A DNA stretch of 64,000 bases from positions 744,001-808,000 of the forward strand of contig NZ_CYUO01000005.1 of the NCBI RefSeq assembly GCF_001407835.1, written 5' to 3'. Positions 14,782 through 55,440 of this stretch are shown here, in pieces. Numbering within the stretch: position 1 is the first letter of the stretch; the number at the start of each line of letters is the position of its first letter. The position numbers were made by a program, and so were the translations under genes. The notes under the pieces were generated by a model that was given only the letters and a program-made list of their open reading frames with translations, was not told where the DNA came from and searched no databases. Source of the DNA: Lagierella massiliensis (lineage in GTDB: Bacteria; Bacillota; Clostridia; Tissierellales; Peptoniphilaceae).

Positions 14782-14829
14782 ATTTTTTGAGATTTACTCA
14801 TCAAATAATCCTTGATTTTAAAATTTAAT

Positions 14830-15012
14830 AGAGCGATGAAGAGAAAAAAGCATGTAAAGTTTTTACAGAGAGCTGATATTTGGTGGGAATCAGTAAGACT
14901 TAATTGTGGGGAATCTTGGAGCTTTTAACTTTAAGAGACGACTAAAGTCGTAATTAGGGTGGAACCGCGGATAACTTTCGTCCCTAGCTTATGCTAGTGT
15001 CGAAAGTTTTTT
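14830..15012 (+). promoter_or_regulatory. T-box riboswitch controlling glyS
   Basis: A tRNA-sensing leader. The canonical T-box AGGGTGGAACCGCG is at 14956-14969. Stem I starts near 14830 (GAGCGATGAAGAG) and closes with complementary AAAAGC and GCTTTT arms. The antiterminator pairs AGGG (14956-14959) with CCCT (14982-14985). The competing terminator has outer arms AACTTTCG (14973-14980) and CGAAAGTT (15001-15008), inner arms CTAGC/GCTAG and a T run. Glycine-compatible GGG/GGA triplets occur at 14908-14912 in the likely specifier region, fitting the downstream GlyRS; I could not fix the exact specifier triplet by eye. Uncharged tRNA-Gly would allow read-through. Confidence 0.95.
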
Positions 15013-15030: not shown

Positions 15031-16425
15031 ATGGATAAAAATATTACCATGGAAGATATAGTATCACTTGCAAAGATGAGGGGATATGTTTTTCCAGGAT
15101 CAGAAATATATGGTGGATTATCAAATACATGGGATTATGGTCCACTTGGAGTTGAATTAAAAAATAATGTTAAAAAAGCTTGGTGGAAGAAGTTTGTACA
15201 AGAAAAAGAGTACAATGTTGGAATTGATGCAGCGATTCTTATGAATCCAGAAGTTTGGGTTGCTTCAGGTCACGTTGGTGGATTTTCAGATCCTCTTATA
15301 GATTGTAAAGCTTGTAAGTCAAGATTTAGAGTCGACAAGCTTATAGAAGATTTTTATATGAATGAAAAAGGAGAAGAATTAACAGGGCTTGATGGACTAT
15401 CAAATGAAGAACTTGTGGAAATTTTAAATAAAGAACAAATTCCATGTCCAAAGTGTGGAAAATTTGATTACACAGATGTTCGTAAATTCAATTTAATGTT
15501 TAAGACATTTCAAGGAGTTACAGAAGATACAACTTCTGAAATCTATTTGAGACCAGAAACTGCGCAAGGTATATTTGTTAATTTTAGGAATGTTCAAAGA
15601 ACTTCAAGAAAAAAAGTTCCTTTTGGAATTGCACAGATAGGAAAGTCATTTAGAAATGAAATCACTCCTGGAAATTTTGTTTTTAGGACAAGAGAATTTG
15701 AACAAATGGAATTGGAATTTTTCTGTAAACCAGGAGAAGATTTAGAGTGGTTTAATTATTGGAGAAAGTTCTGTTATGATTTTCTTGTGAACTTAGGAGT
15801 TAATGAAGAAAGACTTAGACTTAGAGATCACGATAAAGAAGAGTTATCATTCTATAGTGTTGCTACAACTGACATCGAATACAAATTCCCATTTGGATGG
15901 GGAGAACTTTGGGGAATAGCAGATAGAACTGACTACGATTTAAATCAACATATAAATTCAGTTAATGCAGATTTTGTTTATACTGATCCTATTACAAATG
16001 AAAAATATGTGCCTTATTGTGTAGAACCTTCAGTTGGTGTAGACAGAATGTTTTTAACTTTCCTATGCAACGCCTATGAAGTTGAAACTCTTGAAGATGG
16101 CTCAACAAGAAATGTATTAAAACTTCATCCCGCTTTGGCTCCTTATAAAGCAGCTGTACTTCCACTTACTAAAAAATTATCTGATAAGAGTGATGAAGTA
16201 TATCAAAAGCTATCAAAAGTATTCAATGTTGACACTGACGTATCAGGTTCAATAGGAAAGAGATATAGAAGACAGGATGAAGCTGGAACTCCTTTCTGTA
16301 TCACAGTTGATTTTGACACTTTAGAAGATGAAACTGTAACTATCAGACATAGAGATAGCATGGAGCAAGAGAGAGTTAAAATTGATGATTTAATTGAATT
16401 TATAGCAGAAAGGTTGGATTTTTAG
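15031..16425 (+). CDS. glyS: Glycyl-tRNA synthetase, alpha2 (single-subunit) type
   Basis: A 464-residue class II synthetase charging tRNA-Gly. It is the homodimeric type, not the alpha/beta bacterial type: N-terminal [12 protein letters not shown] and WDYGPLG, class II motif 2 [15 protein letters not shown], motif 3 [10 protein letters not shown], and a C-terminal anticodon-binding domain starting at [15 protein letters not shown] and CPKC pairs in the insertion (about residues 93-145) suggest a zinc site. It is controlled by the T-box. Its presence makes the GlyRS beta-like gene at 53100 functionally redundant or repurposed. Confidence 0.96.
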
Positions 16426-25310: not shown

Positions 25311-25318
25311 AAAAATGT

Positions 25319-25428
25319 CTTCAGGGCGAGGTGTGATTCCTCACCGGCGGTTATAGTCCGCGAGCCTATCAGGTTGATTTGGTGAAATTCCAAAACCGAC
25401 AGTAAAGTCTGGATGAAAGAAGAATTGT
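25319..25428 (+). promoter_or_regulatory. FMN riboswitch (RFN element)
   Basis: Clear RFN consensus blocks in order: CTTCAGGGCGAGGTG, the ATTCCTCACCGGCGGT segment, AGTCCGCGAGC, the variable arm, AAATTCC, CCGACAGTAAAGTC, and TGGATGAAAGAAG closing the multi-branch junction. FMN binding should favour the terminator at 25439 and stop ribU expression. Confidence 0.97.
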
Positions 25429-51484: not shown

Positions 51485-52369
51485 ATGTTTAAATCTGGAT
51501 TTGTTTCAATAATAGGTAGGTCTAATGTTGGTAAATCAACATTTTTAAATAGAATAATAGGGGAGAGAATTTCCATTGTCTCAAGTAGACCACAGACAAC
51601 AAGAAATAATATTAAATTCATATATACAGATGATAGAATGCAGTGCATATTTATAGATACTCCTGGCATACAAAAGCCTAAAAATAAGTTAGGGGAATTT
51701 ATGTTAGACTCAGCTACATCTGCATTTAAAGATGTGGATATAATAACATATATCGTAGATAATTCAGGCGTGATTGGAGAAAACGAAAAATTTATAATTT
51801 CGAAATTAAAGGAAGAGGAAAAACCGATTGTTCTTTTAATTAATAAAACAGATATAATATCTGAAGAAAGAACTCAAGAGATAATAAAAACTTTTGGTGA
51901 ATTTGGGATTTTTGATGTGATTTTACCAATTTCTGCACTTACTGGAAGAAATATTGAAGAATATTTTGAAAATATTTATAAAATGTTACCAGAAGGTCCT
52001 AAATATTACGATGAAGAAGAAATTACAGATCAGAGTGTAAGGTCAATATGTGCAGAAATAGTTAGAGAAAAATCATTATTGTTCTTACAAGAAGAAGTTC
52101 CTCATGGTATTAATGTGGAAATCAATAAGTTTAAGAAACGTGAAGATAGAGAACTCTATGATATAGAAGCCACTATTTTAGTTGAAAAAAAAAGCCATAA
52201 AGGCATAGTAATTGGAAAAGGTGGCGAAATGATAAAAAAAATAGGTATGACAGCAAGACAAGACATGGAAACTTTCTTAGAAGCACAAGTAAATCTAAGA
52301 TTGTGGGTTAAAATAGATCCTGATTGGAGAAATAATATAAACAGGTTACAAACTTTTGGATATATCTAA
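51485..52369 (+). CDS. era: GTPase Era
   Basis: A 294-residue ribosome-assembly GTPase. G1 GRSNVGKS, G3 DTPGIQKP, G4 NKTD and the C-terminal KH domain with GKGGEMIKKIG are all present. It binds the 3' end of 16S rRNA. GGAGG precedes the ATG. The cdd gene often seen between dgkA and era is absent. The recO start overlaps the stop by one base. Confidence 0.96.
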   Translation: MFKSGFVSIIGRSNVGKSTFLNRIIGERISIVSSRPQTTRNNIKFIYTDDRMQCIFIDTPGIQKPKNKLGEFMLDSATSAFKDVDIITYIVDNSGVIGENEKFIISKLKEEEKPIVLLINKTDIISEERTQEIIKTFGEFGIFDVILPISALTGRNIEEYFENIYKMLPEGPKYYDEEEITDQSVRSICAEIVREKSLLFLQEEVPHGINVEINKFKKREDRELYDIEATILVEKKSHKGIVIGKGGEMIKKIGMTARQDMETFLEAQVNLRLWVKIDPDWRNNINRLQTFGYI

Positions 52370-53097
52370 TGGAGATAAAAAAAACTAAAATAATAATATT
52401 AAATCATTTTAAAATAAGAGAAAATTCACAGATATTAAATTGCTTTAGTAGGGATTTTGGAAAGATTGACTTGAATATTAGTTCAAAGGGTATGAAATCA
52501 ACAGTTAATTTAATGGATATATTTTCAGAACATTATGTTAGTATTTATTTAAATCAAGAAATATCTTTCTTAAAAGAAAGTGATATAATATCTTCCAATT
52601 ATGGAATAATTAAAAACAAGAACAAAACTGTATTAGGAAATATTGTTTTAGAAGTGTTAAGTAAGATTTTTCCTAAACTTATACCAGATGAAAGGATTTA
52701 TGATTTAACTTCATCTTATTTAAGTTATTTATCTAAAAAAGGAAATGAAAATTTACTAACAATTGCTTATATGCTAAAATTATTAGCAATAACAGGATAT
52801 AGAACAACTTTTGATTTTTCAGAAGGAGAACTGGTTAAACAAAGAAATTATTATTATAATATAAATGAGGGAAGTATTTGTCTAAAACCAGTTTTAGATA
52901 TTCCTACAGTTGTTTTGGATTATAATCAATGTATTCTAATTAGGAACTTGCTTTTTGCAAAGTTTGATGAAATTCCTGATATTAAATTTGAAGATGGATA
53001 TTTTTTATTGAGAACGATATTAAAAACAGTTTTAAATATATTTGAAATATCAAAATTGAATTCTGTTTATTATTTAACTACAGAATTAGGAAGGTAA
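52369..53097 (+). CDS. recO: DNA repair protein RecO
   Basis: A 242-residue RecO, mediator for loading RecA on SSB-coated DNA. The N-terminal OB fold begins with KTKIIILNHFKIRENSQI and is followed by the helical C-terminal part. It has no zinc-type CxxC in the C-terminal half, unlike many RecO proteins, so it is of the zinc-free variant. Position between era and the GlyRS beta-like gene is conserved in Firmicutes. Confidence 0.88.
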   Translation: MEIKKTKIIILNHFKIRENSQILNCFSRDFGKIDLNISSKGMKSTVNLMDIFSEHYVSIYLNQEISFLKESDIISSNYGIIKNKNKTVLGNIVLEVLSKIFPKLIPDERIYDLTSSYLSYLSKKGNENLLTIAYMLKLLAITGYRTTFDFSEGELVKQRNYYYNINEGSICLKPVLDIPTVVLDYNQCILIRNLLFAKFDEIPDIKFEDGYFLLRTILKTVLNIFEISKLNSVYYLTTELGR

Positions 53098-53099
53098 TA

Positions 53100-54629
53100 A
53101 TGAGTAATGAATTATTAATAGAGATAGGAATAGATGGATTGTCATATAGTCTTTATGATATTGCTGTAAATTCAATTTACGAGTCAATTAGAAAGAGACT
53201 TAAAGATTCAAGTATATCCTACTCTAATCTTAATATTAACTATAGTAAAAATAGAATTTTAATTAATTTTAGATTTATAAACCAAGATTATGTAGAGGAA
53301 TCTTTGGTTAATTTTATTATTAAAACATTAAATAATATTTATATTCCTATCAAAGGTCTTAAATATTCAAATAATTTATGGGACTATATTATTTGGATTC
53401 AAGGAATAGTAGATGATAAGATTTTAAATTTTTCTGATTTAAATTTATGTAATAGTAATGACGAAGTAGAATTTTTTAAGATTAATAGTATTGAATCATA
53501 TAAGGATGAATTAGCAGAAAATAATATAATATTTGAAAGTGAAAAAAGAAAAGAATATTTTACACAAGCTGCTAATAAAATCGCAAAAGAACATGGAGGA
53601 CAGATTACAGAAATAGATTATCTTTTAGAAAAATTTATCGCTGAATATAATATGCCTCATCCAATAGTAGCATCCTTTGATCAGAAAATTTTAAAATACC
53701 CAAAGGAACTTATATGTTCTATATTAATGGATATTTGTAATGTTGTACCTATTTTTACTGATAGAGGTCAACTTATGCCATATTATATTTTATGTATTGA
53801 GAAAAATAGAAAAGATGATGAACATTTTATCAAGGACTTAATTAAGGAAATTGACGATGAAATAGAAATAGTTTTAAATAATTGGAATAAAGTTCTTGAA
53901 AAAGACTACTCATACTACTATAAAAATATGGAAGAGATGACATTAAAAGATAGAGTTGGTACTTTATTTGATAAGACAATTAGAATAAAAGATTTATCCG
54001 TAATAATAGGAGAATATTTATTAGTTGGAGATGAAACAGAAGAAAATTTAAATAAAGTTTCTGAAATTGCAAAATTTGATTTAACTACAGATATTGTAAA
54101 ATCATATCCACAATTAAAAGGAGTTATTGGATATTTATATTCTAAAGAGATAGGGAATAATGATATTATTTCTAATGCAGTTGTAGATCATTATAAACCA
54201 AGATTTTTCCATGACAATATACCAAAATCTACTACTGCAAAAGTTCTAAGTTTAGCAGATAAATTGGATGAAATAACAAATTACTTTATATTTTCTCGAA
54301 TAAACGATAATATTTCAGAGTATCAAACATCTGAAATAAGAAGATATGCTTCAGCAATCATAAAACTTATTCTACATGAAAAATGGAATTTGAACATATC
54401 CAGATTGATAGATGACTGCTTATATTTATATATTAAGAACGGTGATTTGGTTTTAGATACAGATGAATTGAAAAAAGATATTTATCAATTTATAATATTT
54501 AAATTTAGAGAAGATGTAATAAGAGATTACAAGGACTATTGCAGAATTGATAAACTAATTGAAGAGCATCCAAATAATTTGTTGGAAGCATATGAAAACT
54601 TATTAAAAGGTGATTCATATGACAAATAA
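53100..54629 (+). CDS. Orphan GlyRS beta-subunit homologue lacking the anticodon domain
   Basis: A 509-residue protein that follows the full-length beta subunit (about 690 residues) of alpha/beta GlyRS along its first three quarters: LLIEIGIDGLSYSLYD (beta N-terminus LLLEIGTEELP), WIQGIVDDKI, MPHPIVASFD, LKDRVGTLFDKTIRI, ADKLDEITNYF and EIRRYASAIIKL (usual RRxALG). It stops before the C-terminal DALR anticodon-binding domain. It sits where glyQ-glyS lies in other Firmicutes, between recO and ppsR, but no glyQ is present; the functional GlyRS is the T-box-controlled alpha2 enzyme at 15031. The frame is intact, so it is a maintained gene, not obvious debris. Function unknown; base use is AT-rich like its neighbours. 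Confidence 0.85.
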   Translation: MSNELLIEIGIDGLSYSLYDIAVNSIYESIRKRLKDSSISYSNLNINYSKNRILINFRFINQDYVEESLVNFIIKTLNNIYIPIKGLKYSNNLWDYIIWIQGIVDDKILNFSDLNLCNSNDEVEFFKINSIESYKDELAENNIIFESEKRKEYFTQAANKIAKEHGGQITEIDYLLEKFIAEYNMPHPIVASFDQKILKYPKELICSILMDICNVVPIFTDRGQLMPYYILCIEKNRKDDEHFIKDLIKEIDDEIEIVLNNWNKVLEKDYSYYYKNMEEMTLKDRVGTLFDKTIRIKDLSVIIGEYLLVGDETEENLNKVSEIAKFDLTTDIVKSYPQLKGVIGYLYSKEIGNNDIISNAVVDHYKPRFFHDNIPKSTTAKVLSLADKLDEITNYFIFSRINDNISEYQTSEIRRYASAIIKLILHEKWNLNISRLIDDCLYLYIKNGDLVLDTDELKKDIYQFIIFKFREDVIRDYKDYCRIDKLIEEHPNNLLEAYENLLKGDSYDK

Positions 54630-55440
54630 TAAAAATATAATAATTATTTCAGACTCTACAGGAGAGACTGCTTCAAGTGTTACAGACGCAATAAAAGTTC
54701 ATTTTGATATTGAAGATTTAAATGTCGTTAAATTTCATAATATACTATCTAAAGAAGAAATTGATAAGATATTTAAAGACTTAAAAGGTGATAATTTAAT
54801 ATACTCTACTATTGTTGATAGAGAATTATTAAAGTACCTGCAAAGTAAATGCAACGAAAATAATTTTTTATTCGTAGATTTATTTGAAGCTCCATTAACA
54901 GCTGCTGAAAAATTTTTTAATCAAGAAGCAAAAAGAAAAGTTGCTCTTTCCCATCAGATGGGGGAAGACTATTTCAATAAAATTAGTGCTGTAGAATTTG
55001 CCATGAAATATGACGATGGAAAGGATATTAGGGGAATAGAACTGTCAGATATAGTTTTAATTGGTATATCAAGAACATCAAAAACACCTTTATCGTTGAA
55101 TTTAGCTTTTAAAAATTATAAAGTTTGTAATATATCATTAGTTCCTGAAATAGAACCTCCAATGGAGTTATTTAAAGTGAACCCTAAAAAGATATTTGGT
55201 CTTATTATCGACAAAAAGAAATTAAATGAAATTAGACAGAAAAGGTTAGAATCACTTGGAATAAATTCTTTTGCAGAATATAGTTCTAATGATAGAATAG
55301 ATGAAGAGCTAAACTATGCATTTGAGCTATATAGAAAAATTGGATGCAAAGTAATAGATGTTACTAATAAGACGATTGAAGAGACTTCTGTTGAAATTGT
55401 CTCAAATTTTGAATCACTAAATACAGGAGAAATTAATTGA
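54619..55440 (+). CDS. ppsR: Pyruvate,phosphate dikinase regulatory protein (PpsR/DUF299)
   Basis: A 273-residue ADP-dependent kinase/Pi-dependent pyrophosphorylase that inactivates or reactivates PPDK or PEP synthase. The P-loop-like motif GISRTSKTPLS and the N-terminal ISDSTGETA are diagnostic. I start at ATG 54619: AAAGGTGA lies 6 bases upstream; a GTG at 54610 is a longer alternative. It overlaps the GlyRS beta-like gene by 11 bases. The target enzyme is not in this window. Confidence 0.93.
   Translation: MTNNKNIIIISDSTGETASSVTDAIKVHFDIEDLNVVKFHNILSKEEIDKIFKDLKGDNLIYSTIVDRELLKYLQSKCNENNFLFVDLFEAPLTAAEKFFNQEAKRKVALSHQMGEDYFNKISAVEFAMKYDDGKDIRGIELSDIVLIGISRTSKTPLSLNLAFKNYKVCNISLVPEIEPPMELFKVNPKKIFGLIIDKKKLNEIRQKRLESLGINSFAEYSSNDRIDEELNYAFELYRKIGCKVIDVTNKTIEETSVEIVSNFESLNTGEIN

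Follow-up and report, generated by a model that had tools for sequence, protein, structure and literature searches.

A glycyl-tRNA synthetase beta-subunit derivative kept in the glyQS slot of Lagierella massiliensis and its relatives after takeover by an alpha2 enzyme, with a retained pseudo-HD cavity as its putative working part

Introduction

The locus described here raises the question of why a cell should keep the beta subunit of an alpha/beta glycyl-tRNA synthetase (GlyRS) in its old operon after the catalytic partner has been replaced, and what such a subunit, here called beta', may do. The window analysed is a stretch of 64,000 nucleotides from Lagierella massiliensis (contig NZ_CYUO01000005.1, positions 744,001 to 808,000 of the forward strand), and all coordinates refer to it unless a locus is named. 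Synthetase-derived proteins with other roles are described in PMC9437257 as coming from duplicated genes and as mainly making use of the catalytic site; in the present case, the displaced enzyme has left behind a non-catalytic subunit at its original position. A full-text search of the open-licence literature returned, among the matches listed, no paper on a GlyRS beta subunit kept without alpha or repurposed, and the term "orphan GlyRS" in PMC9908026 has another meaning. The papers PMC9437257, PMC8464048 and PMC9908026 were available as excerpts, and all statements cited from them refer to these excerpts.

The beta' gene and its operon neighbours

The gene and its immediate surroundings comprise the following features:

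53100..54629, + strand: beta' gene, a GlyRS beta-subunit derivative of 509 aa with the domains B1-B3-HD (Pfam, NCBIfam, phmmer, alignment)
52369..53097, + strand: recO, the upstream operon neighbour, which anchors the slot (ORF, Pfam, NCBIfam)
54619..55440, + strand: ppsR (Kinase-PPPase), the downstream neighbour, whose start codon overlaps the end of beta' (ORF, Pfam)
53089..53094, + strand: GGAAGG, a ribosome-binding-like motif just 5' of the recO stop codon (read by eye)

The frame of beta' is intact, with an ATG start and 509 codons followed by TAA. Its start lies 2 bases behind the end of recO at 53097, and the ATG of ppsR at 54619 results in an 11-base overlap with the beta' stop. The product matched Pfam profile PF02092 with 202.7 bits (E 1.6e-59), exceeding the gathering score of 29.2 bits; the match spans residues 67-471, corresponding to positions 123-519 of the 536 in the profile, and is exactly the one PF02092 match in the genome. 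A phmmer search against the PDB found the GlyRS beta subunit 8ie2 (E 4.4e-31), and the score of 205.5 bits against TIGR00211 was under the equivalog cut-off of 300. A preliminary description of this DNA, made from the letters alone, had called the gene a shortened GlyRS beta-like gene with these spacings and without the C-terminal anticodon-binding DALR domain, and it was right on all these points: a Pfam search of the protein gave no DALR match, and Pfam found none in the two neighbours recO and ppsR either. The alignment added a second loss to that description, that of the internal B2 domain. In the vicinity of beta', a promoter and terminator scan revealed nothing convincing within the operon (the scan counted 64 promoter-like sites, vs. 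55.3 in shuffles). Elsewhere in the window, an FMN riboswitch was found at 25313-25428 (114 bits, gathering score 66.2).

Replacement of GlyQS by an alpha2 GlyRS

Two further features of the window concern the enzyme that charges tRNA with glycine:

15031..16425, + strand: gene for an alpha2-type GlyRS, which replaces GlyQS (PRK04173)
14827..14988, + strand: T-box leader preceding the gene for the alpha2 GlyRS (95.8 bits, gathering score 93)

The alpha2 GlyRS scored 687.3 bits against PRK04173 (cut-off 312). Together with the T-box search, this agrees with the earlier statement that glyQ is missing and that a T-box-controlled alpha2 GlyRS is present. A glyQ gene elsewhere in the genome, which had been named as the observation to look for against this idea, was searched for with PF02091, giving 0 matches in a genome of 99.75% completeness, and the same search was positive in 8/14 control genomes. 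Because its own genome is without any alpha match, beta' cannot, judging from the genome sequence, be a working GlyRS subunit in this organism. We also considered the T-box as a common mark of alpha2 genes and rejected it: only the window locus and one of 14 further alpha2 loci (L096) reached the gathering score. In one genome of genus g34 (G102, C1:385440-386791), the sole GlyRS found is of the alpha2 type, and its assembled frame is broken into two pieces by a stop, which is probably an indel error.

Distribution of beta' and ancestry of its slot

Among 130 genomes of the family, PF02092 matched in 120 and PF02091 in 108. A full-scoring glyQ and glyS pair was present in 105 of them and an alpha2 GlyRS over the cut-off in 22, with an overlap of 0 between the two groups. 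Fourteen of the 22 alpha2 genomes carry a beta' frame, scoring 173-243 bits, and they belong to the window genus g1 (2/3), g5 (6/6), g7 (2/2), g21 (1/1) and Miniphocaeibacter, g30 (3/3). The frame was seen whole in 13 of these 14 genomes, always between recO and ppsR (13/13). No beta' match was obtained in any of the six alpha2 genomes of g34, nor in the alpha2 genomes G083 and G076, which are 65% and 68% complete; G083 is also without ppsR and phoH matches, and G076 has no phoH match, and its ppsR lies close to the end of a contig, where the 1,058 bases preceding it contain no beta'. Three further genomes of 76-81% completeness (G064, G077 and G081) had neither a canonical pair nor an alpha2 GlyRS over the cut-off, and G077 (g25) contains a beta'-like piece at a contig edge. 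The assembled glyS is interrupted by stops in G038, G052 and G119, all among the 105 genomes with a canonical pair, and in the one-contig genome G085, likewise one of the 105 and with no alpha2 GlyRS over the cut-off, canonical glyS is split into ORFs of 528 and 154 aa (L115 7234-9310). These interruptions are either indel errors or something odd, because glyS should be essential there.

Outside the family, the order contained 48 genomes without a match to the beta' profile, a profile that does detect canonical GlyS. An alpha2 GlyRS was found in 46 of these 48 genomes without a glyS match, and in 28/28 of the good ones; displacement elsewhere in the order ended in the loss of glyS. A sample of the class gave PF02092 matches in 44/393 genomes, and the only divergent ones were five of the window family.

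At 19 loci of canonical relatives, the gene order is, with small variations, phoH-ybeY-(pap)-era-recO-glyQ-glyS-(orf)-ppsR. Because canonical relatives carry recO-glyQ-glyS-(orf)-ppsR, the comparison shows that the slot of beta' is the ancestral glyQS position. In g1, g7, g21 and g30, beta' lies directly 3' of recO. The six g5 genomes (L043-L048) carry an extra gene of 274-292 aa between recO and beta', here called alpha', which, judging from its position and, weakly, from its sequence, is derived from glyQ. Five alpha' products were tested (G047 left out): three matched PF02091 with 57, 37 and 20 bits, the fourth with 12.7 bits (E 0.07) and the fifth not at all, and the fifth matched the product of its sister genome with 151 bits. 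In these five sequences, 6/75 invariant cells of class II motif 2 and 13/55 of motif 3 are kept. In g34, ppsR is relocated in 6/6 genomes, and at the two loci compared (L131 and L133; Pfam on one), dnaG and rpoD come immediately after recO. So the glyQS-ppsR segment was excised in g34, and operon integrity is therefore no reason that would have forced the retention of beta' elsewhere.

Selection on beta'

Ratios of dN/dS were calculated according to Nei-Gojobori for three species pairs. Beta' yielded 0.090 in the g1 pair G000/G084 with a dS of 1.28, which is near saturation, 0.093 in the g7 pair G054/G055, the highest value of the six genes compared, and 0.029 in the g5 pair G046/G047; alpha' gave 0.032 (one g5 pair). 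The neighbour genes in the same pairs ranged from 0.010 to 0.137, one ratio being undefined with no differences. All 13 whole beta' frames are open across the five genera, and the identity to the window protein between genera is 19-45%. Beta' is a selected protein and not a decaying relic, and neutral decay is excluded.

The preliminary description had proposed that the subunit was kept in its old operon slot after its partner had been displaced, and that relatives should be searched for beta-like genes between recO and ppsR without glyQ. Such genes were indeed found, in the form of the 13 whole beta' frames, which in g5 are accompanied by the glyQ-derived alpha'. Distribution, locus and dN/dS values of 0.03-0.09 in three pairs support a retained subunit under purifying selection. 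Neutral decay in close relatives had been named as evidence to the contrary, and no stops or frameshifts were seen in these frames.

Loss of tRNA-reading parts and retention of the HD cavity

The E. coli beta subunit is divided into the domains B1 (1-65 and 125-215), B2 (66-124), B3 (216-340), HD (341-540) and ABD (541-end) (PMC8464048). By alignment, we located the corresponding parts of the window gene:

53256..53285, + strand: approximate junction of the missing B2, the tRNA-elbow domain (alignment with 30 canonical family GlyS)
53937..54518, + strand: HD domain, kept better than any other part, at residues about 280-473 with approximate boundaries (alignment)
53973..53984, + strand: cavity residues K292 and R295 (E. 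coli K364 and R367; alignment)
54072..54074, + strand: cavity residue K325 (E. coli K394; alignment)
54192..54194, + strand: cavity residue Y365 (E. coli Y434; alignment)
54258..54269, + strand: cavity residues D387, K388 and D390 (E. coli D456, K457 and D459; alignment)

The alignment was based on 30 canonical GlyS of the family, with domain boundaries set by motif and thus approximate. A column was counted as invariant if at least 17 of the 18 canonical GlyS agreed in it, and these columns were compared with 12 beta' sequences; the canonical set excludes G085 with its split glyS, and the beta' set excludes G047, which is near-identical to G046, and the contig-edge pieces of G077 and G089. 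The 12 beta' keep 134/432 of the invariant cells in B1, 0/84 in B2 (all gap), 140/468 in B3, 286/528 in HD and 13/84 in ABD. B2 is missing in 13/13 whole beta' of the family. In the window protein, where 0/54 B2 columns are filled, the junction, at residues about 51-62, follows an N-R-I motif, and 36/151 ABD columns are filled. In g1 and g30, the ABD consists of about the first 36 columns only; it is shortened or diverged in g7 and g5, and the g21 protein shows a faint DALR match of 14.6 bits, under the cut-off.

Within the HD domain, the seven cavity residues K/R/K/Y/D/K/D, taken as named in PMC8464048, are kept in 73/84 cells of the 12 beta' vs. 213/444 for the other HD invariants. This enrichment had a p value of 0.0028 in permutations within HD and of 5e-5 within B1+B3+HD, and of 0.0022 and 0.0037 when weighted by five genera or three lineages, respectively. 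The variants observed are I for Y434 in g7, E for D459 in g7 and H in G046, E for K364 in G088 and R for K457 in 5/12 beta'. The catalytic His-Asp doublet of HD enzymes is absent: the window protein has A-K at E. coli positions S393-K394, and the second position is K in 12/12 aligned beta'. An AlphaFold model based on four sequences (window, L056, L057 and L058) reached a pLDDT of 54.5, too poor for a fold search.

In E. coli, mutations of the cavity residues K364, R367, K394 and D459 lowered aminoacylation and left glycine activation unaffected, and the authors proposed the cavity as a possible allosteric site (PMC8464048, PMC9908026). The excerpted text of PMC8464048 reports no binding of four cyclic or alarmone nucleotides to the E. 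coli HD domain. The cavity adjoins U73 and C74 in the E. coli tRNA complex, and that of canonical GlyRS has been put forward as an antibiotic target (PMC9908026).

The tRNA contacts compared, at positions 406 and 409 and in the stretch 473-482 of the E. coli subunit, were likewise taken from PMC9908026. T406, which contacts C74, is kept in 0/12 beta'; a P at this position is not special, being present in the canonical beta subunit 8ie2, too. Q409, the other C74 contact, is replaced by K, R or H in 12/12 beta', and this basic residue may add positive charge near the cavity. In the acceptor-stem loop, G473, S474 (D in E. coli) and P477 are kept in 0/12 and D476 in 2/12 beta'; F478 is kept in 0/12, with Y in three of them, as in 3/18 canonical rows, and R481 and R482 are kept in 8/12 and 4/12. 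The window protein is changed at 473, 474, 476, 477 and 478 and retains R481 and R482.

Number of conversions in the family

Trees were built with FastTree and treekit. The operon tree is based on five neighbour genes and 33 taxa, after dropping 2/35 taxa (G003 and G094) with fewer than three genes each. On this tree, the alpha2 label needs three changes, forced by starred branches, and a single clade of alpha2 genomes is rejected (p 1.45e-66); g21 is the sister of canonical g29 (100/100) and g5 that of canonical g6 (100/98). Because a canonical GlyQS is not plausibly rebuilt from beta', these three changes would imply at least three conversions in the family.

In a possible alternative that we regard as rather unlikely, the family would have converted only once, and beta' (and alpha2) would then have spread horizontally within it; this concerns the history of beta' and not its function. 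The beta gene tree, which has long branches, unites the 12 family beta' at 76/94 (not starred), holding g5 and G051 together gave p 0.0305, the loss of B2 and the K/R/H at position 409 are common to beta', and the alpha2 tree joins g5 with g7, g24, g30 and g1 (0.950). This spread is difficult to reconcile with the verdict of the operon neighbours and with the native slot of all 13 whole beta'. The alpha2 genes lie elsewhere in the genomes, so that no linked package is seen, and the G073 beta' has its greatest similarity, at 290 bits, to the canonical GlyS of the sister genome G085, a clade of the two not being rejected on the beta tree (p 0.28). The best matches of the G050 beta' outside g5 are canonical as well, and in beta trees built without the other beta', each lineage took a different, weakly supported place. 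The beta and alpha2 trees do not resolve the number of origins; repeated conversion is likelier than the spread of one beta', though not proven. The beta' lineages may not be independent tests of cavity retention, because the beta tree unites them.

Possible functions of beta'

Beta' resembles canonical GlyRS beta (PF02092, TIGR00211) in the homology of B1, B3 and HD, in its operon slot and in the HD cavity residues, and differs from it by lacking a GlyQ partner, B2 and, in the window genus, nearly all of the ABD, by its altered tRNA-contact residues, by its score below the equivalog cut-off and by the presence of an alpha2 GlyRS. With HisZ, the HisRS-like regulatory subunit of HisG, it shares the origin from a synthetase; HisZ has no adenylation activity and regulates via protein contact and ligand response (PMC9437257). 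However, HisZ has a known partner and is paralogous to a catalytic synthetase, whereas beta' is an in-place derivative of a non-catalytic subunit after its displacement. From the retention of the cavity, we infer that beta' may work in a HisZ-like manner, by ligand binding and regulation of a partner. With the HD-superfamily hydrolases PgpH, HD-GYP, MESH1 and SpoT/RelA (look-alikes according to PMC8464048), it has an HD fold with a cavity in common; unlike these enzymes, it is without the catalytic H-D doublet, and therefore no hydrolase activity is expected.

Our favoured reading, which is unproven and put forward tentatively, is that beta' acts as a ligand-binding pseudo-HD module in a non-synthetase role. 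B2 is lost, the anticodon domain and the acceptor-stem-reading loop are lost or remodelled, and B1, B3 and above all HD are kept; the working part would be the pseudo-HD pocket with its K/R/K/Y/D/K/D cavity. The pocket would most likely bind a small anionic ligand, either a nucleotide-like metabolite or RNA 3'-terminal nucleotides, and its bound or unbound state would be relayed through the B1/B3 surface to a partner, at first to the dead alpha', which one genus has retained, and today to a different one. An effector-like role of the pocket would then predate the conversion and outlast aminoacylation. E. coli cavity mutants spare glycine activation and lower charging; the plainest reading would be a binding function of the cavity that outlived the synthetase. 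Points against the favoured reading are the four nucleotides reported not to bind the E. coli HD domain, the cavity variants in some beta', the poor AlphaFold model, the highest dN/dS of six genes for beta' in the g7 pair, and, in the four sequences outside the family, a cavity excess that was not significant, with Q409 kept in f192. Its retention could instead reflect a purely structural role or a residual RNA 3'-end contact, the latter being conceivable because the cavity faces U73/C74 in the tRNA complex (PMC9908026).

Alternatively, beta' may mainly be a protein-protein scaffold, in which the B1/B3 surface that once held alpha does the conserved work and the pocket provides fold stability. 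Such a lasting complex is suggested by g5, whose catalytically dead alpha' persists next to beta' under selection, with a dN/dS of 0.032 (one pair). We consider the scaffold unlikely on two counts, as B1 and B3 keep 31% and 30% of the canonical-invariant cells vs. 54% in HD, and the E. coli cavity mutants still activate glycine and so probably fold (PMC8464048).

Binding of RNA through the beta-subunit core had been given as an example of a new role in the preliminary description. The retained and selected subunit stands, and the RNA-binding part of that proposal is weakened by the loss or change of B2, T406, Q409, loop 473-478 and the ABD. In such a role, B1 and the HD pocket would accommodate the 3' end of an RNA or the acceptor of a tRNA, e.g., as a trans-factor of the alpha2 GlyRS. 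The contact of the HD cavity with U73/C74 in the E. coli complex (PMC9908026), its retention in beta' and the basic residue at 409 in 12/12 beta' are in line with this, but it appears improbable to us: B2 is lost in 12/12, the ABD is nearly gone in g1 and g30, the acceptor-stem loop is mostly changed, and the alpha2 GlyRS evidently works without beta' in 46/48 order genomes without a glyS match and also in g34. Given the loss or alteration of B2, of almost the entire ABD and of the greater part of the acceptor-stem loop, beta' is unlikely to read tRNA-Gly as in the E. coli complex.

Finally, slow decay of a relic still awaiting its loss has in its favour the outright loss in g34 (6/6 without match, recO followed by dnaG and rpoD in two loci) and the fast divergence of beta' from genus to genus, with 19-45% identity to the protein of the window, but it is highly improbable and already contradicted by dN/dS values of 0.03-0.09 in three pairs, by 13/13 open whole frames in five genera and by the outright loss of glyS from 48 genomes elsewhere in the order.

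The family genomes form a graded series from a dead alpha' with beta', through beta' with a remnant ABD and beta' with almost no ABD, to clean loss. The natural deletions spare the HD cavity, and a role of the pocket is directly testable in a protein freed from tRNA charging. A broader proposition, which we would call doubtful, is that effector sensing by the HD pocket is a function of bacterial GlyRS beta separable from aminoacylation, which was kept several times in Bacillota after an alpha2 takeover as the tRNA-reading parts were shed. If true, it would define a family of stand-alone pseudo-HD sensors and explain the conserved cavity of canonical GlyRS.

Similar remnants outside the family

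In a sample of the phylum, PF02092 matched in 292/398 genomes, and 11 others, whose matches were weaker than about E 1e-150, were rechecked. Three genomes of family f150 (L151-L153) carry an alpha-like gene of 255-265 aa, which scored 33-58 bits against PF02091 and in which neither motif 2 nor motif 3 of class II can be recognised. The adjoining beta gene codes for 662-687 aa, is fast-evolving and has both B2 and ABD. The two genes may be a dead GlyQS pair in a second family of Bacillota, and from the loss of the alpha' motifs, we infer that an alpha2 GlyRS should be present there. In the single genome of family f192 (L150 5971-7830), recO is followed by a gene for a 619 aa beta protein without B2 but with a DALR match, and no glyQ was found beside it at this locus; a cobalamin adenosyltransferase gene lies downstream. 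HD is the best-kept domain in these proteins, too (93/132 cells in f150, 24/44 in f192), and f192 keeps Q409. The comparison of the cavity with the rest of HD in these four sequences (23/28 vs. 94/148) was not significant (p 0.15).

Among the other rechecked genomes, G887 was set aside as ordinary, with a canonical GlyQ beside a full-length GlyS, and G973 of the same genus by analogy. The low-scoring PF02092 matches of G844, G735, G878, G879 and G996 correspond to a part-length piece or to two pieces. A match to beta' of 27% was also recorded in Wolbachia (L059).
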